Origin: an uncultured Geobacter sp.
GTDB lineage: Bacteria > Desulfobacterota > Desulfuromonadia > Geobacterales > Geobacteraceae
Assembly (NCBI GenBank): GCA_903925075.1
Contig: CAIYDQ010000302.1
Coordinates: 1 to 45,144 of the forward strand
Length of the DNA stretch: 45,144 nucleotides
Direction: 5' to 3'
Shown here one piece after another: positions 14,947 through 29,081 of the stretch. Made by a program: the position numbers and the translations under genes. The notes under the pieces were generated by a model. It was not told where the DNA came from. It did not search any database and saw nothing but the letters and a program-made list of their open reading frames with translations. Position 1 is the first letter of the stretch. The number at the start of each line of letters is the position of its first letter.

Positions 14947-15252
14947 TCAGTTTTGCTCTGTCGGGCTTCCCTTGACCCTGTCGTTTGCGTTCCCACCGGC
15001 GCCCGATCCGGTAGAGCTCGATCCCTTCTTCTGATGATATTTCTTCATCTTATGCTCGACTGCGCCACCGGTACCCGTCGTGCCTGCCTTATTGGTGATG
15101 GTTTCCTTGTTACCCGGTTCATCGTTGTGGAACACATAGGAACTGCCACCACCGGAGCTGCCTCTGGAGCCGGTTGCCTGTGCGCTTGCGGCCAGTCCCA
15201 TCATGCCGACTATAGCAACTGTTGTTAAGAACATACGCGTCATGGGTTTCAT
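14947..15252 (-). CDS. Small secreted Gly/Ser-rich protein, paralog A (101 aa)
   Basis: The start at 15252 follows CAGGAGGTACGATC; an in-frame ATG 39 bp upstream has no such site. Residues 1-27 are a Sec signal peptide (MFLTTVAIVGMMGLAASAQA). The mature protein is low complexity and has the conserved core SSYVFHNDEPGNKETITNKA, then GTTGTGGAVEHKMKKYHQKK, then a Ser/Gly stretch. It has no Cys. It is clearly paralogous to the product at 15640-16026, with the same signal peptide and core, and the two genes share upstream DNA. Function unknown. The His/Lys segment could bind a metal or an anionic polymer. It converges with the glycosyltransferase gene, 15 bp away. Confidence 0.75.
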   Translation of the reverse strand: MKPMTRMFLTTVAIVGMMGLAASAQATGSRGSSGGGSSYVFHNDEPGNKETITNKAGTTGTGGAVEHKMKKYHQKKGSSSTGSGAGGNANDRVKGSPTEQN

Positions 15253-15490
15253 GATCGTACCTCCTGAACGAGGTATAACCTCAACTCTCATGCTTCTTGT
15301 GTCATGATAGTTCGTATTTAATTTTTAAGCAAAAATTTATTTTAGCGACAGAACAGTGGTCTAATAGAAAGCTTAGCGGGGTTTGTCTTCTTGTACTAAT
15401 GAGTATGATGAGTAATTAACACAGCACTCAGCATCAAGGTGACTCGCATGTATCAGGGTATGTATCGAGGTGTATATAGTATTAAAATAT
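15253..15490 (-). promoter_or_regulatory. Conserved upstream region of paralog A
   Basis: This stretch aligns with 16027-16265 upstream of paralog B. Shared blocks include TGCTTCTTG, GTATTTAATTTTTAAGCAAA, a TCAGGGT block and a TATAGTTTTAAAA-like block at the far end. The length (about 200 bp) suggests a long 5'UTR or several regulator sites rather than a bare promoter. No named motif was identified. Confidence 0.6.
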
Positions 15491-15639: not shown

Positions 15640-16026
15640 TTAGGGGCCGCCGGAAGAAGGCACATTGTAGGGTTCCGAACCGGCCGGCACCGTACCGCTT
15701 TGCTCTGGTGGGCTTCCATAGACCCTGTCGTTTGTGTAGCCACCGGTGCCCGAACCGGCAGAACTCGATCCCTTCTTATGATGATGTTTTTTCATCTTAT
15801 GCTCAACTGCGCCACCGGTACCTGTCGTGCCTGCCCTATTGGTGATGGTTTCCGTGTTTCCCGGTTCTTCGTTGTGGAACACATAGGAACTGCCACCTTC
15901 CTGGGCCACTCTGACGGTTCCCGAACCGGAGCCGCCTCCGGAGCCGGATGCCTGTGCGCTTGTGGCCAGTCCCATCATGCCGACTATCGCCACTGATGTT
16001 AAGAACATACGCGTCATGCTTTTCAT
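15640..16026 (-). CDS. Small secreted Gly/Ser-rich protein, paralog B (128 aa)
   Basis: The signal peptide (MKSMTRMFLTSVAIVGMMGL) is nearly identical to that of paralog A. Compared with A, the mature part gains a segment GSGTVRVAQEGG before the shared core (SSYVFHNEEPGNTETITNRA) and a longer tail (GTVPAGSEPYNVPSSGGP). The His/Lys block is HKMKKHHHKK. CGGGAGGTACGATC precedes the ATG. Exported and probably intrinsically disordered; function unknown. The gene and its 5' region are a tandem duplicate of A; the downstream segments differ. Confidence 0.75.
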   Translation of the reverse strand: MKSMTRMFLTSVAIVGMMGLATSAQASGSGGGSGSGTVRVAQEGGSSYVFHNEEPGNTETITNRAGTTGTGGAVEHKMKKHHHKKGSSSAGSGTGGYTNDRVYGSPPEQSGTVPAGSEPYNVPSSGGP

Positions 16027-17014: not shown

Positions 17015-17042
17015 TTGACGCTAAGGGTTGGCCCTTTATAAT
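17015..17042 (+). promoter_or_regulatory. Promoter of the egtD-MES operon
   Basis: TTGACG (17015-17020) and a perfect TATAAT (17037-17042) with a 16-bp spacer lie 45 bp upstream of the egtD ATG. Confidence 0.65.
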
Positions 17043-17087
17043 TTTCGGGTTGTTTTCTGGGCACCTATCCGATTCAAGGGAGAAGCC

Positions 17088-18158
17088 ATGGACGCTTTCT
17101 TCGCCTCACCTGAACCGCATATTTTCCGAAGCTTCCGAGAAGCCTGCTGTGGTAAGGGCTCCACTGTTCTGCGCGGGCTGTCGGGGACCGACCCCGTGCT
17201 GGATTTCGCCCGATCCACCGCTGCCGGGCTGGCCTCCGCCCCGCGCAGCCTCGAATGCCGCTTCCTCTATGATGCGCAAGGGAGCGCGCTCTTCGAGCTG
17301 ATCACCCAGCAGCCGGAGTACTATCTCACCCGCACCGAAAGCTCGATCCTGGCGGCCAATGCTCCGGCCATCAGACAGATCACCGGACCGGCGACGCTGG
17401 TGGAGTTCGGATCGGGCAATTCTGAGAAAACCTCTCATCTGCTGCGCGCCTGGCTTGAGCAGACGCCCCATGTCTGCTATGTGCCGATCGACGTCAGCGA
17501 AAGCGCACTGGTCGAGGCAGGCGGCGCCATTGCCGCAAAGTACGACAACGTCAAGGTGGTAGGCGTGAACTGCCGTTTTCAGCAGGCATTCCCCCTCATA
17601 TCGCAGCTGTCGCCGTCGCTGGTGTTGTTGCTGGGAAGCACCATCGGCAATCTCGCTCCCGCCGAGATGTCCCGATTTCTTACCTCCATGGCCTCCTCCA
17701 TGCAAGCCGGCGATTTCTTCCTGTTGGGCCTCGACCTGGTGAAGCCTGCCTACATACTGGAGGCGGCCTATAACGACGCCGCGGGAGTGACGGCGAGGTT
17801 CACGCGCAATCTCTTCGCCCGCATGAACCGCGAACTCGGCAGCGGCATCGATACCGAGTCGATCGAGCATGTGGCCAATTTCAATGCCGCCAAAGAGCAG
17901 ATCGAGATCTTCGCCCGCTTCACCTCGCGGCAGACCCTGTTCCTGGAGCCGCTCGGCATGCAGTTCACCATTCCCGTCGGCGAATTGGTGCAGGTTGAAA
18001 TCAGCAGGAAATTTCGCCTGGAACGGACGGTACGCTACCTGGAGGAGTTCGGTTTCGAGACCGAGGCGATCTTTGCCGACGAACTGGAGTGGTTCGCCCT
18101 GATCCTTTTGCGCCGCATTCCCAAATATCACGCTGCCGACCGGGGGAGGAAAAGGTGA
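17088..18158 (+). CDS. egtD: L-histidine Nalpha-methyltransferase EgtD (356 aa)
   Basis: EgtD trimethylates histidine to hercynine with three S-adenosylmethionine, the first step of ergothioneine synthesis, in the cytoplasm. Family blocks in order: RFLYDAQGSALFELITQQPE then YYLTRTES (about 64-90), the SAM site LVEFGSGNSEKTSHLL, LLGSTIGN, LLGLDLVKPAYILEAAYNDA, GVTARFTRNLFARMNREL, and near the end VEISRKF. The Glu-x-Ser of that last block matches the pair that holds the histidine amino group in mycobacterial EgtD. The start MDAFFASPEP is preceded by GGGAGAAGCC; an upstream ATG at 17028 lies inside the promoter. The stop overlaps the next start by 4 bp (GTGA), so both proteins are translationally coupled. 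No EgtA, EgtB, EgtC or EgtE gene is present. Confidence 0.93.
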   Translation: MDAFFASPEPHIFRSFREACCGKGSTVLRGLSGTDPVLDFARSTAAGLASAPRSLECRFLYDAQGSALFELITQQPEYYLTRTESSILAANAPAIRQITGPATLVEFGSGNSEKTSHLLRAWLEQTPHVCYVPIDVSESALVEAGGAIAAKYDNVKVVGVNCRFQQAFPLISQLSPSLVLLLGSTIGNLAPAEMSRFLTSMASSMQAGDFFLLGLDLVKPAYILEAAYNDAAGVTARFTRNLFARMNRELGSGIDTESIEHVANFNAAKEQIEIFARFTSRQTLFLEPLGMQFTIPVGELVQVEISRKFRLERTVRYLEEFGFETEAIFADELEWFALILLRRIPKYHAADRGRKR

Positions 18159-21100
18159 ACTCAGCCTCCTTTGAGACCCGTAACGGGCTGTGCGGCATCT
18201 GTCCGGCCGGCTGCTTCGTCACCGCCACCTTGCAAGAGGGCCGCCTGGTCGGGGTCGAACCGCAGCAGGGACACCCTATGGGCATGCTCTGCCGGATAGG
18301 TCGCCACTCCCCGCAGATCGTGCACGATCCCGACCGGCTGCTGTATCCGCTGGGGCGCATCGGGCCCAAGGGGAGCTACCGGTTCGAGCGCATCTCGTGG
18401 GACGAGGCCTACCGCCGGATCGTTGAGCGCTTCCAGGAGATCAAGAGGGGCTTCGGCGCGGAGGCGGTGGCGATCTACACCGGGCGGGGCAGTTTCGACA
18501 TGGCCCTTTGCGACCTCTTTCAACCCGCCGACGCCGCGGTCTCCTCGGCCTCCAGCGTGCTCTTCCCCTTCGGCTCCCCCAATACCCTCGGAGTAGGCGC
18601 CCTCTGCTATGTCTCCTTCGCCATGATCGCCCCCCACGTCACCATGGGCGAGATGCTGATCGGCATGGAAGCCGACCTTGAGCAGGCGGAGTTGATCGTC
18701 ATCTGGGGCGCGAACCCCGCCACCGATTCGCCTCCTTTGGCTCACCGCCAGATTTTGCAGGCGCGCCAGCGCGGCGCGCAGGTGATCGCCATCGATCCGC
18801 GCCGCGGCGAAACGGCGCGGGAAGCGGAGGCGCGCTGGATACCGATCAGGCCCGGGACCGACGGCGCGCTGGCCCTGGCGCTGATCGGCGTGCTGATCGA
18901 AGAGGAACTCTTTGACGAGCGTTTCGCGCGAGACTGGACCGAGGGTTTCGCGCAACTTTGCCAGCTTGTGCAGCACTATCGGCCGGAACAGGCAGAGGAA
19001 ATCACCGGAGTGCCGGCGGCGACGGTGCGGGAACTGGCGCGGTTGATCGCCTCGGCCAGAGGCGCCTGCCCGATCATGTACACAGGGCTCGAATATTCCG
19101 ACAGCGGCGTGCAGGCGATCCGTGCGGTCCTTGCCCTCTTCGCGTTGGCCGGGCAGTTGGACGTCCCCGGAGGAGTGCTGTTTCGGATGAAGCAGAACGT
19201 CTTCCCCCAGAACCGCTCGCGCCTGGTTGCCAACCCCGATCTCAAGAAGGCGCTGGGGCGCGACCGCTTCCCCGTCTACAGCGCCTACCGCGGCGAATCG
19301 CACGCCTCGGCGCTGCCGGAGGCGGTGCTGGAGGGGAAACCCTATCCGATCCGCGCCCTCGCCGTCCTGGGCGGCTCGCTGATCACCGCCTGGCCCGATC
19401 CCGACCTGTGGCGCAGAACTTTCGCCGCGCTTGACTTCATGGTGACCGTCAATCGCTACCATACCGCCGATTCCGCCTATGCCGACATCGTACTGCCGGC
19501 GACCACCTATTACGAGAACGTCTCCTACATGAGATATGGCCCTCTCTTCAAGATCCGGGAGCGGTTGGTGGCGCCGCAAGGGGAGGCGCGCAACGACTTC
19601 TTCATTCTGGCGGAACTGGCAAAGCGTCTGGGCTACGGCCATCTCTATCCGCAAAGCGAGGATGAGATGCTGAGTTTCGCGCTGGCCGGCGCCGGCTTCA
19701 CCCTGGAACAGGTGCGCGCCTCGGGCGGCGAAGCCCGGATGCCGGCGGCCATGATGCAGTACCGTAAATGGGAGAAGGGGCTGCTGCGTCCCGACGGCAA
19801 ACCGGGTTTCAACACCCCGAGCGGCAAGTTCGAAATCGCCTCTTCCGTCCTGGCCGAAAACGGCTACCGGGCGTTGCCGGTCTACACGGAGCCCGCCGAG
19901 GGGCCGCTGGCGAACCCGGAACTGGCAAGGGTGTACCCGCTGGTGTTCAATTCCGGCGCCCGGACCGTCCACGATTTCCGAAGCCAACATCACGGGGTGG
20001 CGGGACTTGCCGAGCGGCACGCGCAGCCCCCGGTCACCTTGAACAGCGCCGATGCGGCTGAGCTGGGGATCGCGGACGGCGACCTTGTCTGGGTGGAGAC
20101 GCCGCGGGGCCGGGCGCGGTTCGCGGCGCGACTGACGGACGACCTCTTGCGCGGCTGCGTCGACGCCGCCATGGGGGGCGGCGGGCCGCTCGGGTCGCAG
20201 GCCTGGCAGGAGTGCAACGTGAACGCATTGACCGATGCCGGCCGCTACGATCCCATCTCCGGGTTTCCCATTTACAAGGCGCTTCTTTGCCGGGTGACGA
20301 AGGCGGACGGTGGGGCGGCTGTCGGCGGCGGGTCGATGTCCACCGGCAAAGCCGGGGCGATTGCGGCAAAGCCGGCTGGCGGGGTTGGAATGGACGGATC
20401 GAGCGCCGACTTCTCCGCGCTCAGCCGACAAAAGGGGGCGGCGGCGCCCGTGCGCCGCGTTTATCTGGACCATAACGCCACTACTCCGGTGCTCCCGGAG
20501 GTGCGGGAGGCGATGCTCCCTTTTCTGGGAGAGGAGTGCGGCAATCCTTCCAGCATTCACGGCATGGTGAGCCGCGCCAGAGCGGCCGTGGAGGCGGCCA
20601 GGCGCGTGGTCGCGCAGGCGCTGAACTGCACGGCGCGCCGCATCGTCTTCACCGGAGGGGGGTCCGAAGCGGACAACTTGGCGATTATGGGAGTGGCCCG
20701 GGCCGCCGACGGCTCCCGACGCCACCTGGTGGTGAGCGCTGTCGACCATCCCGCCGTGCTCGCCCCCTTTCGGTCCTTGGCCGCGGCGGGCTATCCGCTG
20801 AGCGTTTTGCCCGTGAATCGGCATGGCGTAGTCGAGCCGGAGCAACTGGAGAAAGCGATCCGCCCGGACACGCTGCTGGTGTCGGTGATGTTTGCCAATA
20901 ACGAGACCGGGGCGCTGCAACCGGTGCGCGAACTGGCGGGCATCGCCCATGCGCGCGGCGCTCTTTTTCATTGCGACGCGGTGCAGGGCTTCGGCAAATT
21001 GCCTGTCGACGTTGAAGAGCTGGGAGTGGATCTGCTGGCGGTGTCGGCCCATAAACTGCACGGTCCGAAAGGGGTGGGGGCGCTCTATCTCGCCAAGAAC

Positions 21101-21616
21101 GTCGCGCTTGAGCCGCTGATTCTGGGAGGCGGGCAAGAGTGGGGGGTGCGAGCTGGCACGGAAAACGTGCCCGGCATCGTCGGTTTCGCCAAGGCGGTGG
21201 AGCTATCGCTTGCGCGGCTTTACGCGGACGAGTCGGCGAGGGTGGCGCGGCTTCGCGACCGGCTGGAGGCGGGGATCCTGGCGATCATGCCGACGGCGAG
21301 CGTCAACGGGCCGCGCCCGAGGCGTCTGCCGAACACCCTCAACATGACCCTTCCCGAGATTCGCGGCGAATCGCTGGTGCTCCTTCTGGACAGAAAAGGG
21401 ATAGCCCTTTCTTCCGGCTCGGCCTGCAAGTCGGGAAATCCCGAGCCGTCGCCCGCGCTGCTCGCCATGGGGCTTACCCCGCAACAGGCGCACTGCTCGG
21501 TGCGCTTCTCGCTCGGCTCCGCCAACACCGAAGAGGATATCGAATACCTGCTGGAGTCCTTGCGTGAGTTGCTGGGGGACACCCGCGGCGCAATCCGTTT
21601 CGTGCCGTGCCGGTAA
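18155..21616 (+). CDS. Molybdopterin oxidoreductase-cysteine desulfurase fusion; probable metallopterin-dependent ergothioneine synthase (1153 aa)
   Basis: The start is GTG at 18155, overlapping the egtD stop and preceded by GGGGGAGG. Residues 13-46 bind one [4Fe-4S] cluster (CGICPAGC and MLC: C13, C16, C20, C46). A DMSO-reductase-family Mo/W-bis-MGD domain follows to about 715, with Cys151 (GSPN...ALCY) the likely metal ligand, VIWGANPATDSP, and the C-terminal cofactor-binding part (LNSADAAELGIADGDLVWVE). A Gly/Ala/Ser linker covers about 717-765. Residues 769-1153 are a complete NifS/IscS-type desulfurase: VYLDHNATTP, PLP-lysine SAHKLHGPKG (Lys967) and catalytic Cys1091 in SSGSACKSG. With egtD upstream, the likely job is to pass cysteine-derived sulfur to C2 of hercynine without O2. 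I recall a similar Caldithrix abyssi enzyme being reported. No Tat signal, so cytoplasmic. Confidence 0.88.
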   Translation: MNSASFETRNGLCGICPAGCFVTATLQEGRLVGVEPQQGHPMGMLCRIGRHSPQIVHDPDRLLYPLGRIGPKGSYRFERISWDEAYRRIVERFQEIKRGFGAEAVAIYTGRGSFDMALCDLFQPADAAVSSASSVLFPFGSPNTLGVGALCYVSFAMIAPHVTMGEMLIGMEADLEQAELIVIWGANPATDSPPLAHRQILQARQRGAQVIAIDPRRGETAREAEARWIPIRPGTDGALALALIGVLIEEELFDERFARDWTEGFAQLCQLVQHYRPEQAEEITGVPAATVRELARLIASARGACPIMYTGLEYSDSGVQAIRAVLALFALAGQLDVPGGVLFRMKQNVFPQNRSRLVANPDLKKALGRDRFPVYSAYRGESHASALPEAVLEGKPYPIRALAVLGGSLITAWPDPDLWRRTFAALDFMVTVNRYHTADSAYADIVLPATTYYENVSYMRYGPLFKIRERLVAPQGEARNDFFILAELAKRLGYGHLYPQSEDEMLSFALAGAGFTLEQVRASGGEARMPAAMMQYRKWEKGLLRPDGKPGFNTPSGKFEIASSVLAENGYRALPVYTEPAEGPLANPELARVYPLVFNSGARTVHDFRSQHHGVAGLAERHAQPPVTLNSADAAELGIADGDLVWVETPRGRARFAARLTDDLLRGCVDAAMGGGGPLGSQAWQECNVNALTDAGRYDPISGFPIYKALLCRVTKADGGAAVGGGSMSTGKAGAIAAKPAGGVGMDGSSADFSALSRQKGAAAPVRRVYLDHNATTPVLPEVREAMLPFLGEECGNPSSIHGMVSRARAAVEAARRVVAQALNCTARRIVFTGGGSEADNLAIMGVARAADGSRRHLVVSAVDHPAVLAPFRSLAAAGYPLSVLPVNRHGVVEPEQLEKAIRPDTLLVSVMFANNETGALQPVRELAGIAHARGALFHCDAVQGFGKLPVDVEELGVDLLAVSAHKLHGPKGVGALYLAKNVALEPLILGGGQEWGVRAGTENVPGIVGFAKAVELSLARLYADESARVARLRDRLEAGILAIMPTASVNGPRPRRLPNTLNMTLPEIRGESLVLLLDRKGIALSSGSACKSGNPEPSPALLAMGLTPQQAHCSVRFSLGSANTEEDIEYLLESLRELLGDTRGAIRFVPCR

Positions 21617-21618
21617 GG

Positions 21619-22116
21619 TTACAAAAGGGGGGCGGCGTTGCGGCAGTTCGACTGCTTACGGGATTGCAGTCGACTGTAGACGACGATCAGGAAGATCGTC
21701 CCCGATCCCGCCATATTCCCAAGGCTTATCGCCGTGAAAATCCTGTCCCTAACGTAGAGCCAGGCATAAAGAGAACTCACCAGGGAACCGAGGCTCCAGC
21801 CTCCGAAGGTGACCAGGGACAAGGAAAGGGCGTGGTTTTTGTCTTTGCAGGCAGTGAAGATTTGAGGCAGGTAGAGCAAAACCGCCGCAACGCCGTTCAG
21901 GACATAAAGAGATTTGATGGCAACTAGCAGATTCACGCAATGACTGTCGTCGGCTAAAACCGAGGCCCTTTTCTTTAGTAGCAGCTGAAGATACAGCATG
22001 GCGAATAAAAAAGAAGTGAAGTAGGTCACAGAACCGGCAAACAATCGACCACCAGCCCCTTTAAATTTGACTCCCCGCGGTCTGTTGAAGATCAATCCGG
22101 CGTTTCCTCGCTTCAA
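21619..22116 (-). CDS. PQ-loop-type small membrane protein (165 aa)
   Basis: Four to five hydrophobic segments are visible, including one PQ-loop (VLNGVAAVLLYLPQIFTACK) with a second, degenerate repeat (ISLGNMAGSGTIFLIVVYSR). PQ-loop proteins of the SWEET/KDEL-receptor/cystinosin type are membrane transporters or sorting receptors; many bacterial copies are unassigned. The frame begins with TTG at 22116 overlapping the cytochrome stop by 4 bp (TTGA) but lacks a clear ribosome-binding site, so the true start may be further in, near LFAGSVTYFT. It is probably co-transcribed with the cytochrome gene and converges with the MES gene 3 bp away. Confidence 0.6.
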   Translation of the reverse strand: MKRGNAGLIFNRPRGVKFKGAGGRLFAGSVTYFTSFLFAMLYLQLLLKKRASVLADDSHCVNLLVAIKSLYVLNGVAAVLLYLPQIFTACKDKNHALSLSLVTFGGWSLGSLVSSLYAWLYVRDRIFTAISLGNMAGSGTIFLIVVYSRLQSRKQSNCRNAAPLL

Positions 22117-22508
22117 CGAAAGGTCGTCGTCACGTAGTCATAGATCAGCCTCGCGTCGCTGTCAGGGATGGTCGCCTGGTCGAACTTCCTCATCCCCGGC
22201 CCCGGGTTGCGCATCACCCGGATCATATCCTCCGGTTTGGTTATCTTGTAGTCGGCCAGCACCGCCGCGTGCAGCGTCTTTTTCGGGTTGATGATGTTGC
22301 CGCCGTCGGGATGACAGGCGGCGCAGAACTGTTTGAACAACTCTTCGCCGGTCATTGCCGCTGTAGTTGGCGTAGTTGGTGCCGGAGCTGCGACTGCCGG
22401 GGCACTTTGCGCAGCTTTCTTTTCCTGCATGCTCTCTTTTTTGCATCCTGCCATACCGCTCGCGCTGATTGCCAGAGCTGCCAAGCTTGCCGCAATGTAT
22501 CTGAGCAT
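22113..22508 (-). CDS. Monoheme c-type cytochrome lipoprotein (131 aa)
   Basis: A lipoprotein signal ends at GMAGC (Cys22), followed by a Ser/Ala/Pro/Thr-rich spacer to about residue 50. The class I cytochrome domain has the heme site FCAACHPDGGN and probable axial Met in NPGPGMRKFD. It resembles small cytochromes c6 and the OmcF-type outer-membrane monoheme lipoproteins of Geobacter, but orthology is not shown. It would carry single electrons in the envelope. It is divergent from iorA-iorB and may accept electrons from that enzyme. CAGGAGAAGGACG precedes the ATG. Confidence 0.88.
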   Translation of the reverse strand: MLRYIAASLAALAISASGMAGCKKESMQEKKAAQSAPAVAAPAPTTPTTAAMTGEELFKQFCAACHPDGGNIINPKKTLHAAVLADYKITKPEDMIRVMRNPGPGMRKFDQATIPDSDARLIYDYVTTTFR

Positions 22509-22667: not shown

Positions 22668-22734
22668 TAACTGTTCGCCGGCCCCATAGCTATGAGTGAG
22701 GGCGCAATCTTACCACTATCAGCAGGAGGCATTT

Positions 22735-23205
22735 ATGTTATCGCTTACCGTCAATGGGAAAAATTATCAGATCGATGCGCCTGTCGACGCGCCGCTTCTA
22801 TGGGTAATCCGGGAAAAGATCGGCCTGACCGGGACCAAGTACGGCTGCGGCAAGGCGCTGTGCGGCGCCTGCACGGTTCATGTCGACGGCAAGGCTGTTC
22901 GCTCCTGCGTTACTCCGGTGTCGACGGTGCTCGGCAAGGAGATCGTGACCATCGAGGGGCTCTCGCCGGACCGCAGGCATCCGGTGCAGCAGGCCTGGAT
23001 CGCCGAGGACGTGCCGCAGTGCGGTTACTGCCAATCCGGCCAGATCATGTCCGCGACGGCGCTTCTTGCCGCCAACCCGATGCCGACCGACGAGGACATC
23101 GACGAGGCCATGTCCGCCAACATCTGCCGGTGCGGCACCTATCAGCGCATCAGGAAGGGGATCCATCGCGCAGCCGCCGCCATGGCGACGGGAGGCGAAA
23201 AATGA
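22735..23205 (+). CDS. iorA: 2x[2Fe-2S] small subunit of an IorA-type Mo hydroxylase (156 aa)
   Basis: Start at 22735 after CAGGAGGCATTT. A plant-type [2Fe-2S] domain comes first ([20 protein letters not shown]), then a helical [2Fe-2S] domain with [11 protein letters not shown] and [12 protein letters not shown]. This is the xanthine dehydrogenase/IorA layout: electrons pass from the Mo site in IorB through the two clusters to an acceptor, here probably a cytochrome, since no FAD subunit is encoded. The stop overlaps the iorB start (ATGA), so the two are coupled. The substrate is not known; IorAB homologs also oxidise aldehydes or other heterocycles. It is likely exported with IorB, because it has no signal of its own. 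Confidence 0.88.
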
Positions 23206-25361
23206 GCCGTATCGTACTGATCGATCGCCGCGAATTCCTGAAAGCGGGGGCGCTGGCCGGGGCAGGGTTGGCGCTGGGCTTCTATCTGCCCGTGAGAGAA
23301 TCGGCTTTTGCCGCCGAGCAGGCGCCCTTTTATCCCACCAATGCCTTCGTCCACATCGGCGAGGACAATGTGGTGACGGTGCTGGTGAACAAATCGGAGA
23401 TGGGGCAGGGGGTGTACACGTCGATCCCCATGCTGGTGGCCGAAGAGCTTGAGTGTGATTGGAGCAAGGTGCGCGTGCAGCCGGCCCCGGTAGCCGAGAT
23501 CTACAACAACCCCATGTCGGGGATGCAGATGACCGGGGGAAGCACCAGCATCAGGACCGAATGGACGCGCATGCGCGAGGTAGGCGCCGCCGCCAGGCAG
23601 ATGCTGGTCGCGGCGGCCGCCAAGCGGTGGAGCGTGGACCCGGCAAGCTGCCTGGCGGAGAACGGCACGGTCAGGGACGCGAGCGGGAGAACCCTGCGCT
23701 ACGGGCAACTGACGCTGGAGGCGGCGCGGATGCCGGTGCCGACGCAGATCGTCTTGAAAGACCCGTCTCGGTTCAAAATCCTGGGCAAGCCGACGCGCCG
23801 GCTCGATACGCCGGAAAAATTGGACGGGACGGCCCTTTTCGGCATCGACATCCTGCTTCCAGGCCTCTTGACCGCGCTGGTCGAGCGCTCGCCGGTGTAC
23901 GGAGGAAAGGCGAAGCAGCTGCGCAGCGAGAAAGCCAAGGCGATTCCGGGAGTGAAAGAGGTGGTGCGGATTGCCTCGGGAGTGGCCGTGGTGGCGACCG
24001 ATTACTGGGCGGCCAAAAGGGGGCGCGACGCCCTGGAGATAGAGTGGGACTACGGCCCGCGCGCCGGGATTTCCAGCGAGGCCATGCACAAGAAATACGC
24101 GGGTATGTCGGAGGAACCGGGCTTGGTCGCCAGGAAGGACGGCGAACCGGAGCGCGCCCTGGCGGGTGCGGCGAAAAAAGTGAGCGTCCAGTACGATCTT
24201 CCCTATCTGGCGCACGCCGACATGGAGCCGTTGAACTGCGTGGTTGATCTTAGGCCGGGGAGTTGCGAGATCTGGGTGGGGACCCAGGGACAGACCGCCG
24301 ACCGCGACCTGGCGGCGAAGATGTCGGGGCTTCGGCCCAACCAGGTAAAGCTGCACACGACCTTTCTGGGCGGTGGCTTTGGCCGCCGCGGCAATCCCCA
24401 TTCCGATTTCGTGGACCTGGCCATGCAGGTCGCCCTGGAGGTCAAAAAGCCGGTCAAGGTGATCTGGAGCCGCGAGGACGACATGAAAGGCGGCTACTAC
24501 CGCCCGCTGTGGCACGCCCGGATGAGCGGCGGCTTTGACGAGAGCGGCAATCTGGCGGCCTGGCAGCATCGGATAGTCGGGCAGTCGATCATGAAGGGGA
24601 CCTCCAACGAGAAACGGCGCATCAAGAACGGCGTGGACCTCTCCTCGGTCGAAGGGGCCAACGAGCTTCCCTACGAGATCCCGAACATCCTGGTGGACCT
24701 GCACAGCCCGGAAGAAGGGATGCCGGTCCAGTGGTGGCGATCCGTCGGGCATTCGCACACGGGATTCGAAGTGGAGAGTTTCATCGACGAACTGGCGCAC
24801 GCGGCCGGCAAAGATCCCTATCGCTTTCGACGCTCCTTGCTGGGCAAACACCCAAGGCATCGCGGCGTGCTCGATCTTGCCGCGGAGAAGGCGGGGTGGG
24901 GCGGGGAGTTGGCGCCGGGCCGGGCCCGCGGCATAGCCGTGTTCAAGTCCTACGAGAGCTACGTCTGCCAGGTGGCGGAGGTCTCGGTGGCGGCGAACGG
25001 CCGCGTGCGGGTGCACAAGGTAGTGTGCGCGGTGGACTGCGGCATGACGGTCAACCCGGCCACCATCGAGGCGCAGATGGAAGGGGGCATCGTCTTCGGC
25101 CTTTCCGCCGCGCTCTACGGCGCCATCACCGTGGAAGAGGGGAGGGTGCAGCAGGAAAACTTCGACGATTACCAGGTGTTGCGCATGGACGAGATGCCGG
25201 TGGTCGAGGTGCACATCGTCAAGAGCCTGGAAAAACAGGGGGGCATCGGCGAGACCGCGGTGCCGCCCATCGCCCCGGCAGTGACCAACGCCATCTTCGC
25301 GCTCACCGGCAAAAGGATCCGTCGCCTCCCCATCGACAGCGGGATGCTCGGCAAAGTCTGA
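23202..25361 (+). CDS. iorB: Isoquinoline 1-oxidoreductase-like Mo-binding subunit, Tat-exported (719 aa)
   Basis: The N-terminus carries a twin-arginine motif ([20 protein letters not shown]), so the folded complex should be exported to the periplasm. The body has the IorB plan: [67 protein letters not shown] and the catalytic-Glu motif [14 protein letters not shown] near the end. The Mo-dependent hydroxylation substrate is not predictable; the class oxidises N-heterocycles or aldehydes. The length (719) is normal for the family. It works with IorA (4-bp overlap) and probably with the cytochromes at 22113 and 33282. Confidence 0.9.
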
Positions 25362-25417: not shown

Positions 25418-26302
25418 ATGCGCATCTTATCGCACGTTACCTGTATAACTCTCATGGTTCTAGTCCTTTTTTCAGGCGTTTGCGATGGGAAGAGCGGGAA
25501 GGAAGTGTTGCAAAGCAAAGATTATAAACACTTTGATGCAGGAAGCCCATCGGCAGTTTTGACTGCTCTTGTCGAAGCAGATCTTGGTGACTACTTTAAT
25601 AGAGAAAACGAAGATAGATATGCTCTTTGGTGGAAACTGACCGAGATTGGAGGGGTGCCTGATAATGACTATTATATTAAACTGCTAATTAAATCTTACA
25701 AGATCATCCTCAAAAACAAAGATGCCAATAATAATTACTATTTGGAATTGGAACTGGATGTCAGGGCTATTAGCGCGAGTGGAGACACAAAGGATAAAGC
25801 CCCGGTTAGTTGGAGAAATATACCGGTTGTCGTTGGAAATAACGTCTATGGTTCTGGAACGAAAGAATTTGTCGAGGCAGTTTTTGGGCGGGACGAAACG
25901 AGTAGAAAAATTTTAGCAAAAGAGCACGGTCATTTCATAGTTCCAGTAGACAAACGCACATGGGTGTTTCCTGTCAGAATGATAAAGCCAAAAGACGACT
26001 GGCTTATCGCCATGGATTCTGTACCCTTTCAAGTTAATTATGTCAGTTCTGCAGTAAAATTGTATAAATCTGAAATTAATAGAGAAAAAGCCATTATAAA
26101 TGTATGCAGTGGGTTGCGTAAAGTTGACAATTACGTTTTAGAAAGAGAAACTTACGATGTGAAAAGAGCAATAAAACACGATTTAACTAAGTTTAAAGCA
26201 AAATTTTGTACTGAAAAATATTTAAAATCAGAAAGAGCAATTATTTTTTTCTATGAGTCGTTGATAGATCATCTAAATTTAGCAGCGAAGGACGAAATAT
26301 GA
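25418..26302 (+). CDS. Exported AT-rich hypothetical protein, possible T6SS immunity protein (294 aa)
   Basis: Start at 25418 after AAAGGGGGCC. Residues 1-28 form a Sec signal peptide (CITLMVLVLFSGV), so the protein is periplasmic. No domain is recognised. The mature part is mixed alpha/beta, Lys/Asn/Ile-rich (NYYLELELDVRAISASGDTK). The codon choice is far more AT-rich than the surrounding genes, a sign of recent transfer. Its stop overlaps the start of the NlpC/P60-like gene (ATGA), which in turn overlaps vgrG. A periplasmic partner next to a peptidoglycan amidase suggests an immunity protein, as in Tae-Tai pairs, but 294 residues is long for that role. Inference from context. Confidence 0.65.
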   Translation: MRILSHVTCITLMVLVLFSGVCDGKSGKEVLQSKDYKHFDAGSPSAVLTALVEADLGDYFNRENEDRYALWWKLTEIGGVPDNDYYIKLLIKSYKIILKNKDANNNYYLELELDVRAISASGDTKDKAPVSWRNIPVVVGNNVYGSGTKEFVEAVFGRDETSRKILAKEHGHFIVPVDKRTWVFPVRMIKPKDDWLIAMDSVPFQVNYVSSAVKLYKSEINREKAIINVCSGLRKVDNYVLERETYDVKRAIKHDLTKFKAKFCTEKYLKSERAIIFFYESLIDHLNLAAKDEI

Positions 26303-27033
26303 GTGATATTGCCTTAAATTCACTCCGCTATAATGACACGAACACAAGGCGCTCGGACCCGCCAAACAGACACCACGGAGAATTAGAGATAATAGCAGAT
26401 AAAGCTTTCTTGAATTTTGACTGTTCAGGCTTTGTTTGCCACGTTTTAATAGAGTCAGGTTACCGAATTGATTATCACAGTACGGGTGCATTCCTTACGT
26501 CAAAAGGGTTTTCAACTGTACCTCCTGAAGAAGTACAAGCCGGTGACATAATACTTTTTGGCGGGCATGTGGGTATTGTCATTGAATATGCAAACTCCAC
26601 CCATTTAGGCAGATTCATTCATATGCATGGTAAAGATGATGTCGGTGGGATAAAAATCAGCGAATTTGTAAGCGTCAAAAGCACAGATTCAAACAATAGA
26701 TACTATGGTACGCGAAGAGCGATAAAAGGATTTCGAAGGGTAAAGAAAGAACGCTACAGCGGCACGGTTGATTTGCATATCAACAACAGTAATCCAACCC
26801 CCACTTTGCGGCCTCTGGGAACAATGGTGTATTCAAATTATGTCCGCAAGACCTCCAAGCCGGCCAAAACTGCCCTCCTTGATAAAACCGGGCATCTGCC
26901 GGCAAAGAAACCACTTAAGTTGAAGAGTGTCCCTCCTGACAAGGGTCTTACCGGTCTCATCGCCCGCTTATACAGCCATTTGCCAAGCTTTAAAGCGACG
27001 TCGCACAGGACAAGAAGGAGGGGCATCGAATGA
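26299..27033 (+). CDS. NlpC/P60-like amidase, probable T6SS effector (244 aa)
   Basis: The N-terminal domain shows the papain-like NlpC/P60 pattern: catalytic Cys42 in FDCSGFVCHVLIESG, then QAGDIILFGGHVGIVIEY with His90, and a third polar position probably in FIHMHGK. These enzymes cut peptide bonds in peptidoglycan. The C-terminal 90 residues are Lys/Arg/Pro-rich and may bind VgrG or the wall. It has no signal peptide, as expected for a T6SS-delivered effector. The gene is AT-rich at the 5' end and becomes more GC-rich towards vgrG. ATG overlaps the previous stop, and its own stop overlaps vgrG. Effector status is inferred from position. Confidence 0.75.
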   Translation: MSDIALNSLRYNDTNTRRSDPPNRHHGELEIIADKAFLNFDCSGFVCHVLIESGYRIDYHSTGAFLTSKGFSTVPPEEVQAGDIILFGGHVGIVIEYANSTHLGRFIHMHGKDDVGGIKISEFVSVKSTDSNNRYYGTRRAIKGFRRVKKERYSGTVDLHINNSNPTPTLRPLGTMVYSNYVRKTSKPAKTALLDKTGHLPAKKPLKLKSVPPDKGLTGLIARLYSHLPSFKATSHRTRRRGIE

Positions 27034-29081
27034 TCTTCGGGCAAACGCCTAAATTCCAGTTTCAGATATCAGGGACCAACTACGAAATAGCCGTTGAACG
27101 TTTCGAGGCGGCAGAACGGATATCCGAACCTTTTGTGGTCACTGTCTACCTCGTCAGCGAGGACAAGATCGACTTCACCGATGTGATAAAGAAAGAAGCT
27201 CTGCTGACTGTAGCCGGCAGCGACGAGGATCGTTACTTTCACGGTGTGATCGGCGACTTCACCTTGACCGGCCGCGTCGGCCGCTTCTACTCGTATCAGG
27301 CAACTATCGTCCCTGCCGTATGGATGCTCGACTTCAACAAGAACTTCAGAATATTCCAGAAGATCTCCGCAATCGAGATCGTCACCAAAATCCTCGACGA
27401 AAACCACATTCCTTCCGATTGCTATGCATTCAAACTCGCGTCCGACTACCCCGAAAGGCGTTACTGCACCCAGTACGGCGAAAGCGATTTTCACTTCATC
27501 TGCCGTATTATCGAGGAAGAAGGCATATTCTATTTCTTCGAACACGAGACGGATTCTCACACCATTATTTTTTCCGACACAGAAGCCGTCTACAGGCCGA
27601 TAGCGGGAGACGACGAAATCGTCTTTCATCACGACTCGGGACTGGTCGCCGAGAAGGAGGCCATCGATAACTTCACCTACAACCGCGCAATCCGCCCCGG
27701 CAAGATCACCCACGCGAACTACAACTTCAAAAGGCCCTCTCTCGACATGGAAATAATGGAGGAGGCCGACACTCACAGGGTCCATGAAATTTACGAGTTC
27801 CCGGGCGATTACGGACTCCCTCCAGAAGGCTCGCCGAAGGTGAAAGCCCACCTGGAAGAAGTCAAATCTCTTCAGGAAAGCGCGCAGGGCACCAGCAACT
27901 GCGTGAGATTCCTGCCGGCCAGCACCTTCACCGTCAGCGACCACAGCTTCGAGCAGTTGAACCAGGCATACTGCCTCATCTCGGTGGACCATGAAGGGAC
28001 CCAGTCCAACGTTTATGGCGAACATTCCGGGATCGGCGGCGACTACACCTATACCAACCAATTCGTAGCCATTCCCGCCTCCACCGTATACCGCACCCGC
28101 AGGACGCTGCAAAAGCCCTGGGTACGCGGCCTGCAAAGCGCGGTCGTGGTCGGCCCCCCCGGATATGAAATTTATCCGGACGAGTTCGGCAGAATAAAAG
28201 TCCAATTCCACTGGGACAGGGAAGGCAAGAAAAACGATCGGAGCTCGTGCTGGCTTCGCACCAGCCAGCCCTGGAGCGGCAATGGCTGGGGGATGGTATC
28301 GCTGCCGCGCGTGGGGGACGAGGTGCTCGTCGATTTCATCAACGGCGACCCGGACTGGCCGATCGCCGTGGGCAGCGTCAACAACGCAGCCTCGCCCGCG
28401 CTCTACAACCTGCCCGCCAACAAAACCCTAAGCGGCATCAGGACCAGAAGCACCCCCGGAGGCGGGCGCGACAATTTCAACGAACTGCGCTTCGAGGACA
28501 GGAAAGGGGGCGAGGAGGTATACCTTCAGGGCGAAAAGGACTGGAACATCCTGATCAAGAACGACAAGGGGCAGACCGTCGGCAGGGACGAAACCCACGC
28601 CGTGGGCAACAACCGCAGCAAAACCGTGGGGTGCAATCAGTCGGAAGAGATCGGGGCGAATCACACCGAAACTATCGGCGCCAACAAGAGCGAGACGGTC
28701 GCCATAGACAAGACGGAAATCATCGGCGCTGCAAAGACCCTGCGGATCGGTGGCCTGTACCAAGTGACCGTCGGCGCGGACCTGAATGAAACCGTCGGCG
28801 CCGACAAAACCGAGCAGATCATGGGCGCAAAAGTAGTCATGGTCGGAGCATACATGAGCGAGAACGTGACCGGTGCGCGCAGCATCGAAACCGGCACGAC
28901 CCATTCGGTCACGGCGGAAAGGATACTGGTTGAAGCCGCGAACGAAATTGTTTTTTCCACCGGCAGCGCCTCCATCAGCATGAAAAGCGACGGCAACATA
29001 GTCATCAGCGGAAACGACATACAAGTGAAGGGCTGCGGGAACATCATCATCAAAGGACAAAAGGTGACGACAAATGGATGA
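27030..29081 (+). CDS. vgrG: Type VI secretion tip protein VgrG (683 aa)
   Basis: VgrG forms the trimeric spike that carries effectors. The gp27-like N-terminal domain includes FQFQISGTNYEIAVERF and QYGESDFHFICRIIEEEGIF. The gp5-like OB domain shows DEFGRIKVQFHWDREGK, RTSQPWSGNGWGMVSLPR and VGDEVLVDFINGDPDWPI. From about residue 540 the repeated NHTETIGANKSETVAIDKTE-type heptads form the beta-helix spike, ending FSTGSASISMKSDGNIVISG. It is complete. No other T6SS structural gene (TssB, TssC, TssM, Hcp) lies in the window, so this is an orphan cargo island. It overlaps the amidase gene by 4 bp; a terminator follows at 29236. Confidence 0.95.
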   Translation: MIFGQTPKFQFQISGTNYEIAVERFEAAERISEPFVVTVYLVSEDKIDFTDVIKKEALLTVAGSDEDRYFHGVIGDFTLTGRVGRFYSYQATIVPAVWMLDFNKNFRIFQKISAIEIVTKILDENHIPSDCYAFKLASDYPERRYCTQYGESDFHFICRIIEEEGIFYFFEHETDSHTIIFSDTEAVYRPIAGDDEIVFHHDSGLVAEKEAIDNFTYNRAIRPGKITHANYNFKRPSLDMEIMEEADTHRVHEIYEFPGDYGLPPEGSPKVKAHLEEVKSLQESAQGTSNCVRFLPASTFTVSDHSFEQLNQAYCLISVDHEGTQSNVYGEHSGIGGDYTYTNQFVAIPASTVYRTRRTLQKPWVRGLQSAVVVGPPGYEIYPDEFGRIKVQFHWDREGKKNDRSSCWLRTSQPWSGNGWGMVSLPRVGDEVLVDFINGDPDWPIAVGSVNNAASPALYNLPANKTLSGIRTRSTPGGGRDNFNELRFEDRKGGEEVYLQGEKDWNILIKNDKGQTVGRDETHAVGNNRSKTVGCNQSEEIGANHTETIGANKSETVAIDKTEIIGAAKTLRIGGLYQVTVGADLNETVGADKTEQIMGAKVVMVGAYMSENVTGARSIETGTTHSVTAERILVEAANEIVFSTGSASISMKSDGNIVISGNDIQVKGCGNIIIKGQKVTTNG

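Follow-up and report, generated by a model that had tools for sequence, protein, structure and literature searches.

The 45,144-bp contig CAIYDQ010000302.1 of an uncultured Geobacter sp. (assembly GCA_903925075.1), referred to below in its full length as the window, harbors egtD and an overlapping gene coding for a molybdopterin-cysteine desulfurase fusion. Together they very probably form a complete O2-independent pathway to the antioxidant ergothioneine, of the type published for the metallopterin-dependent ergothioneine synthase (MES) of Caldithrix abyssi. The initial annotation of the window had pointed to the Caldithrix enzyme, correctly, as it is described in PMC9516567; the enzyme class is already published and the co-occurrence of the fusion with egtD is not new. 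What is new here is a DinB-superfamily protein associated with MES and a proposal for a further cysteine of the fusion, Cys119, both of which are testable.

Table 1. Position of the ergothioneine-related features in the window
Feature	Position	Strand	Remarks
DinB-superfamily protein, 169 aa	16274..16783	-	divergent from egtD; DinB_2 match; MES-associated
Sigma-70-like promoter-like site, TTGACG-16-TATAAT	17015..17042	+	ahead of egtD; 11/12 consensus matches
egtD, histidine N-alpha-trimethyltransferase	17088..18158	+	356 aa from ATG; profile and residue matches
MES, 1153 aa	18155..21616	+	GTG start; domains and residue conservation
[4Fe-4S] cysteines C13, C16, C20, C46 of MES	18191..18292	+	C in 91/92 distinct fused MES; remaining row begins later
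Cys119 of MES, proposed last persulfide carrier	18509..18511	+	C in 92/92 distinct fused MES; 1/17 unfused modules
Cys151, predicted Mo/W ligand (Cys153 of CaMES)	18605..18607	+	92/92 distinct fused MES
Cysteine desulfurase module of MES	20459..21616	+	Aminotran_5 from residue 769
Lys967, pyridoxal phosphate lysine (Lys952 of CaMES)	21053..21055	+	92/92 distinct fused MES
Cys1091, desulfurase persulfide cysteine (Cys1074 of CaMES)	21425..21427	+	92/92 distinct fused MES
Cys1152, relay cysteine, second-last residue (Cys1135 of CaMES)	21608..21610	+	91/92; remaining row stops early
SemiSWEET / PQ-loop-like small membrane protein	21619..21945	-	convergent with MES; frame open up to 22116

Metallopterin-dependent ergothioneine synthase and EgtD

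The MES of C. abyssi (CaMES) consists of a molybdopterin (MPT) module and a cysteine desulfurase, with cysteine as the sulfur donor. Recombinant Escherichia coli harboring CaMES makes ergothioneine, sulfur was shown to reach the product, and production is lost when Cys153, Lys952, Cys1074 or Cys1135 is mutated. The assignment of the four cluster cysteines relied on conservation, and the work did not include purified full-length enzyme. Four homologues were shown to give ergothioneine in E. coli, and a histidine methyltransferase is co-encoded with the fusion in 55 genomes (PMC9516567).

The fusion of the window contains the Pfam domains Molybdopterin (residues 61-491), Molydop_binding (602-709) and Aminotran_5 (769-1132). 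Among PDB chains, its C-terminal part is best matched by cysteine desulfurases and its N-terminal MPT module by acetylene hydratase (2e7z, E=8e-67). The GTG start codon at 18155 overlaps the stop codon of egtD (18158) by 4 bp (GTGA). The open reading frames (ORFs) and domains are as first annotated, with egtD overlapping a fusion of a [4Fe-4S]/bis-molybdopterin guanine dinucleotide (bis-MGD) oxidoreductase and a desulfurase. In a protein (L204) from a metagenome-assembled genome (MAG) labelled C. abyssi, the relevant cysteines and lysine stand at the published CaMES numbers once the start methionine is counted, and these nine residues align with C13, C16, C20, C46, C151, K967, C1091, C1114 and C1152 of the window; the comparison with the Caldithrix enzyme that had been suggested at the outset thus found all nine kept.

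Conservation was further assessed in an alignment of 99 fused MES (the window, 71 of 80 named loci and 27 other genomes), from which seven duplicates were removed to leave 92 distinct proteins; the other nine named loci were left out, being broken, masked or ending at contig ends. C1114, present in 89 of the 92, is the sole named residue that truly varies (Table 1), and it matches Cys1097 of CaMES, which is nearly dispensable, its mutation costing only two-fold (PMC9516567). The MES identity is well supported by sequence, since every named ligand, the pyridoxal phosphate lysine and the desulfurase cysteine are kept. The protein joins an N-terminal [4Fe-4S] and bis-MGD module with a Cys ligand to a C-terminal desulfurase with its lysine and persulfide cysteine, it carries a relay cysteine at the second-last residue, and it is co-encoded with a histidine-specific methyltransferase. 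It would perform the same reaction as CaMES.

The draft genome (6.55 Mb, 368 contigs, 2.68% contamination) harbors a single copy of egtD. Its product matches PF10017 (E=5e-93 in a Pfam domain search) and exceeds the cut-off of the NCBIfam equivalog TIGR03438 (306.4 bits against 290.9). The Glu-x-Ser pair reported in the initial annotation was recovered as E324/S326 (numbering of a 376-aa frame), aligned to E282/S284 of PDB chain 4uy5_A, which we take to be the imidazole-binding residues. The 376-aa frame opens at a TTG at 17028, a start that would fall inside the promoter-like site; the ATG at 17088 appears the better start, because the ORF of a relative (L252) opens with the same residues. 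Position 17015, originally given as the start of the operon, is the first base of the promoter-like site. Shuffled sequences yield a mean of 0.9 such sites per 6 kb scanned, and the site alone is not significant.

In the proposed route, EgtD would trimethylate histidine to hercynine (trimethylhistidine), while the desulfurase module would move sulfur from cysteine onto Cys1091. The persulfide would then be passed to Cys1152 in the C-terminal tail, from which the sulfur would reach the bis-MGD site with its predicted metal ligand Cys151, and the imidazole ring of hercynine would be sulfurised to give ergothioneine. We propose that Cys119 (position 121 in CaMES numbering, from the offset of the L204 alignment) may be the last sulfur carrier near the metal, where it would receive sulfur from Cys1152. 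The unfused MPT modules compared at this position have identities of about 33-49% and three of the 17 align poorly there; they represent 17 of 18 unfused loci, L129 being left out for an in-frame stop. C712 is likewise invariant in fused MES, yet it is also kept in 16 of the 17 unfused modules. Neither of these two cysteines, which would be Cys121 and Cys714 in CaMES, is mentioned in the main text of PMC9516567. The assignment of Cys119 is a precise prediction for the route of sulfur to the metal.

Search for other thiohistidine routes in the genome

The absence of EgtB, initially claimed for the whole window, stands for the region read (about 11.8-29 kb), in which none was seen. The search for egtB elsewhere in the genome that had been recommended gave the same outcome: among five FGE-sulfatase matches in the whole genome, four ORFs were scanned with NCBIfam (the fifth, L028, was left out) and none of the four, one of which (L025) is cut at the locus end, reaches the TIGR03440 cut-off of 360 bits. 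The best score, 168.7 bits, belongs to an OvoA and the next best is 69.5. This full-length OvoA (contig C304, L026:730-3036, minus strand) harbors 5-histidylcysteine sulfoxide synthase and methyltransferase domains (692.8 and 336.9 bits, both over cut-offs). There are 29 rhodanese matches, and two long ORFs among them were compared with PDB: the 6ku1/6h98 'Sulfurtransferase' chains, presumably EanB, rank below ordinary rhodaneses for one and are absent among the matches listed for the other. EanB is not indicated by these two of the 29 matches.

Distribution of MES and EgtD

Within the order of the window, MES is present in 16 of 141 genomes, after three of 19 matches were set aside (G003 and G004, unfused at 47% identity, and G011, 35% with stops). 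One of the 16, G049, is a poor assembly in which MES and the DinB gene are each in pieces. A phylum sample (Desulfobacterota) gave 27 matches among 395 genomes; 13 of these were unfused and not counted, and the other 14 genomes have a fused frame. In a second phylum, the one to which a Nitrospira-labelled MAG belongs, MES occurs in 7 of 295 genomes, with open frames of 1129-1147 aa. The order and phylum samples share the genome of the window and some others, and absence of MES is not strict proof as only the best candidates were scored per genome (two in the phylum sample, up to seven in the order). The 80 named loci, the best 80 of 297 relatives, are mostly MAGs and bear the organism labels of their records, which include Geomonas, Geotalea, Desulfobacterales, Gemmatimonadota, Nitrospirae, Scalindua and other anammox genera, Chromatiaceae, Anaeromyxobacter, Magnetococcales and Methanosarcinales.

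Besides the window, the order has 14 intact MES loci, and EgtD adjoins MES in each of them, as it does in all 13 fused loci from the remainder of the Desulfobacterota sample. In the order it precedes MES, overlapping or separated by at most 18 bp in 13 of these 14 loci and by 152 bp in L060 (with start codons chosen by script), whereas MES comes first in 12 of the 13 loci elsewhere in Desulfobacterota. EgtD is present in 18 of the 141 order genomes, namely the 16 with MES, G040, which lost MES, and G043, where it is cut at a contig end.

Some loci depart from this organization. In L176, L195 (Anaeromyxobacter terrae), L221 (Thiorhodococcus minor), L237, L239 and L241, MES is complete and fused but the roughly 10 kb on each side hold no EgtD match; hercynine may be made elsewhere in these genomes or imported. 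In the single-contig genome G040, an open EgtD frame (L252, 7599-8669, minus strand) lies beside a MES cut to its first 105 codons, and this strain may stop at hercynine and produce no ergothioneine. Two genomes of a single genus carry an unfused MPT module 47% identical to MES (L017, 1059-3215, plus strand; L018, 1498-3645, minus strand), flanked on one side by a DUF1638 gene and on the other by a URO-D family gene, neither of which was found in the DNA covered around the other unfused relatives tested. Unfused modules were considered as a split MES and rejected, as they show no EgtD match in the DNA covered and Cys119 is missing in 16 of 17. A 1682-aa MES frame in L235 was also discarded as a further fusion, a stretch of it being masked.

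A DinB-superfamily protein associated with MES

The initial annotation presented a two-gene anaerobic pathway; its MES part is supported by sequence, and the picture omits the accompanying DinB and SemiSWEET-like genes. The DinB protein matches the DinB_2 profile with 28.9 bits (cut-off 24.8). Three histidines are conserved in its orthologues (H49 in 25 of 26, H139 and H143 in 26 of 26) and would form a metal-binding triad. Of 13 orthologues, 12 match DinB_2 and three give a weak match to the mycothiol S-transferase profile; the L245 orthologue matches no Pfam family at E 0.01. The DinB profile gave no match to PDB sequences up to E 1 and no similarity to the OvoA of the same genome (single-sequence template), and searches of viral contigs and Rfam returned no matches. 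A lone DinB gene as half of EgtB was considered and rejected.

DinB orthologues (E <= 1e-10) are present in 15 of the 141 order genomes: 14 of the 16 with MES (all but G029 and G038) and G045, the only one of 125 genomes without MES in which the genome search finds a DinB, as a remnant. DinB adjoins egtD in 12 of these 14 and lies away from MES in G119 and G121. G045, a single-contig genome, retains DinB only in pieces and EgtD only as residues 2-53, beside an apparently intact cytochrome c gene, and G040 retains, next to its open EgtD, remnants of MES (1-105), of the SemiSWEET-like protein (1-57) and of DinB (130-166), the last detected by tblastn and missed by the genome search. In these two genomes DinB thus broke where MES broke.

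Similar associations were found outside the order. In the phylum sample, DinB (E <= 1e-8) is present in 9 of 395 genomes, corresponding to 9 of the 14 with fused MES and none of the 381 others; leaving out the window, seven of the eight copies do not share a contig with MES (although in G271 both genes are near contig ends and linkage is possible), and the eighth (G186) lies about 7 kb away. In the Nitrospira-labelled phylum, DinB is present in 2 of 295 genomes, both among the seven with MES, and in none of 288 others. Of 14 genomes with named MES loci, seven harbor DinB; the copy in G538 is divergent and contains a stop. These 14 were chosen non-randomly from the 80, DinB being already visible in the flanks of L164, L166, L201 and L234, and L164, L165, L166 and L169 belong to the order sample. 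Over all 80 named loci, DinB was seen in the flanks of six. Its arrangement varies: divergent from egtD in the order, convergent after MES in L201, on one strand as DinB-MES-EgtD in L234, and divergent about 0.2 kb before MES in G603.

Fisher tests of co-occurrence gave 2e-16 (order), 3e-15 (phylum) and 5e-4 (Nitrospira-labelled phylum), values that are overstated because the genomes are related; the four DinB genomes of family f38 are kin. Trees of DinB and MES correlate (r 0.55), as shared descent would predict, and this was not counted as evidence. The neighbors of unlinked DinB genes reveal no common theme; a FemAB/GNAT gene lies just upstream in L247 and L249, which belong to one family, and a zinc-binding dehydrogenase gene lies near DinB in L245.

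The SemiSWEET-like protein scores under the cut-offs of both the Pfam PQ-loop (19.7 bits, cut-off 22) and NCBIfam SemiSWEET (17.5 bits, cut-off 100) profiles. Its gene is present in 15 of the 141 order genomes, namely 13 of the 16 with MES, G040 as a remnant and G058, which lacks MES. It adjoins MES in 12 of the 13 and is on another contig in G023, and was not found in the DNA around the 13 MES loci elsewhere in Desulfobacterota.

Possible roles of the DinB protein and alternative interpretations

The DinB/S-transferase-like (STL) superfamily contains S-transferases that depend on a metal and use bacillithiol or mycothiol (PMC5815605, PMC10950700), and an ergothioneine transferase is entered as 'Unknown' in a 2024 review (PMC10950700). 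Our favored reading, which we hold tentatively and at clearly less than an even chance, is that the DinB protein might be an ergothioneine-dependent S-transferase in which metal-bound ergothioneine attacks electrophiles; the SemiSWEET-like protein might then transport ergothioneine, hercynine or conjugates. Two observations weigh against it: 10 of 20 MES genomes outside the order (two samples) lack DinB, and a 43% identical protein is encoded on a Spirosoma oryzicola plasmid, outside the scope of the ergothioneine gene searches, next to a gene annotated as NAD(P)H-quinone oxidoreductase. In the literature searched, which excluded most subscription papers and all bioRxiv preprints, no paper on an ergothioneine S-transferase was found and no title or beginning of an abstract connects DinB with egtD or ergothioneine. 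PMC9516567 mentions neither DinB nor Geobacter.

The DinB gene could instead be a passenger that common descent has kept with the operon, a reading that we consider rather unlikely. Its position beside egtD in most order genomes that have it agrees with this, shared inheritance explaining part of the signal, as do the Spirosoma homologue and the absence of DinB from some MES genomes (2 of 16 in the order, 5 of 14 in the phylum sample, 5 of 7 in the Nitrospira-labelled phylum). However, outside the order the copies on other contigs than MES (with the reservation for G271) are still confined to MES genomes, the arrangements in L201, L234 and G603 differ, and DinB is broken together with MES in G045 and G040. 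Somewhat less probable still is that DinB assists synthesis, by binding hercynine or by handling metal or sulfur for MES, rather than using the product. EgtB, the aerobic C-S forming enzyme, is indeed described as a DinB/STL-domain protein in PMC5815605, but half of the MES genomes outside the order do without DinB. Moreover, it is probably not needed for synthesis, because CaMES makes ergothioneine in E. coli with no such gene supplied (PMC9516567).

As for the fusion itself, it is very improbable that it is an ordinary acetylene-hydratase-like Mo/W enzyme whose built-in sulfurase only matures its own cofactor, with EgtD making hercynine for another purpose: its MPT module is related to 2e7z, and some relatives (13 of 27 phylum matches) are unfused and show no match to EgtD in the DNA covered, but 58 of the 80 named loci, under widely different organism labels, have EgtD close to the fusion, all named CaMES residues are conserved, and sulfur reaches the product in C. 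abyssi MES (PMC9516567). Several points nevertheless weigh against the assignment of the operon to the MES pathway. EgtD was not found in the DNA covered of 22 of the 80 named loci, many of which are at contig ends, and MES is not always beside EgtD, as in the six loci above. The comparison protein L204, from a MAG labelled C. abyssi, stands in for the type-strain protein. Finally, the OvoA in the draft would provide a possible second, O2-dependent thiohistidine route, if contig C304 belongs to the organism.

The tendency of DinB to come and go with MES may hint at what ergothioneine is used for in these bacteria. Their order includes Geobacter sulfurreducens, which we take to be its model member. 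This species is reported not to make glutathione (PMC9874932). The use of ergothioneine by anaerobes is a question raised in PMC9516567, and the co-occurrence with a DinB/STL protein offers a candidate downstream function.

Other genes of the window

A cytochrome c gene (22113-22508, minus strand) lies between the SemiSWEET-like gene and a two-subunit Mo hydroxylase (22696-25361, plus strand), presumably of the isoquinoline-oxidoreductase type, with a [2Fe-2S] subunit and a MoCoBD subunit bearing a weak Tat signal. Further on, genes for an NlpC/P60 protein and then a VgrG-like spike protein (26299-29081, plus strand) resemble a portion of a type VI secretion island. On the other side, a tandem pair of genes (14947-15291 and 15640-16026, minus strand) between a glycosyltransferase gene and the DinB gene encodes short proteins that are similar to each other, look secreted and match no Pfam family.

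Comparison with known systems

The window operon resembles C. abyssi MES (PMC9516567) in domain order and length, the nine named residues, the second-last cysteine and the co-encoded egtD. It differs in having EgtD in front of MES and overlapping it, in the flanking DinB and SemiSWEET-like genes and in its Geomonas-like host. It has EgtD in common with the aerobic EgtB/EgtD pathway, whose DinB-FGE sulfoxide synthase was not found among the four of five FGE ORFs scanned; the lone DinB protein is not an EgtB. Like the EanB/EanA pathway of Chlorobium, it would transfer sulfur to trimethylhistidine independently of O2, whereas EanB is a rhodanese using polysulfide and the predicted enzyme here is a Mo/W enzyme using cysteine. 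Its N-terminal module belongs to the family of acetylene hydratase (2e7z), sharing a Cys-ligated metal and one [4Fe-4S] cluster (PMC9516567), but MES has a desulfurase module and a different predicted reaction. Finally, the DinB protein resembles BstA-H and mycothiol S-transferase of the DinB/STL superfamily in its DinB_2 match, the weak mycothiol S-transferase match of some orthologues and the three conserved histidines, and differs from them in lacking a PDB sequence match and in its association with ergothioneine genes.

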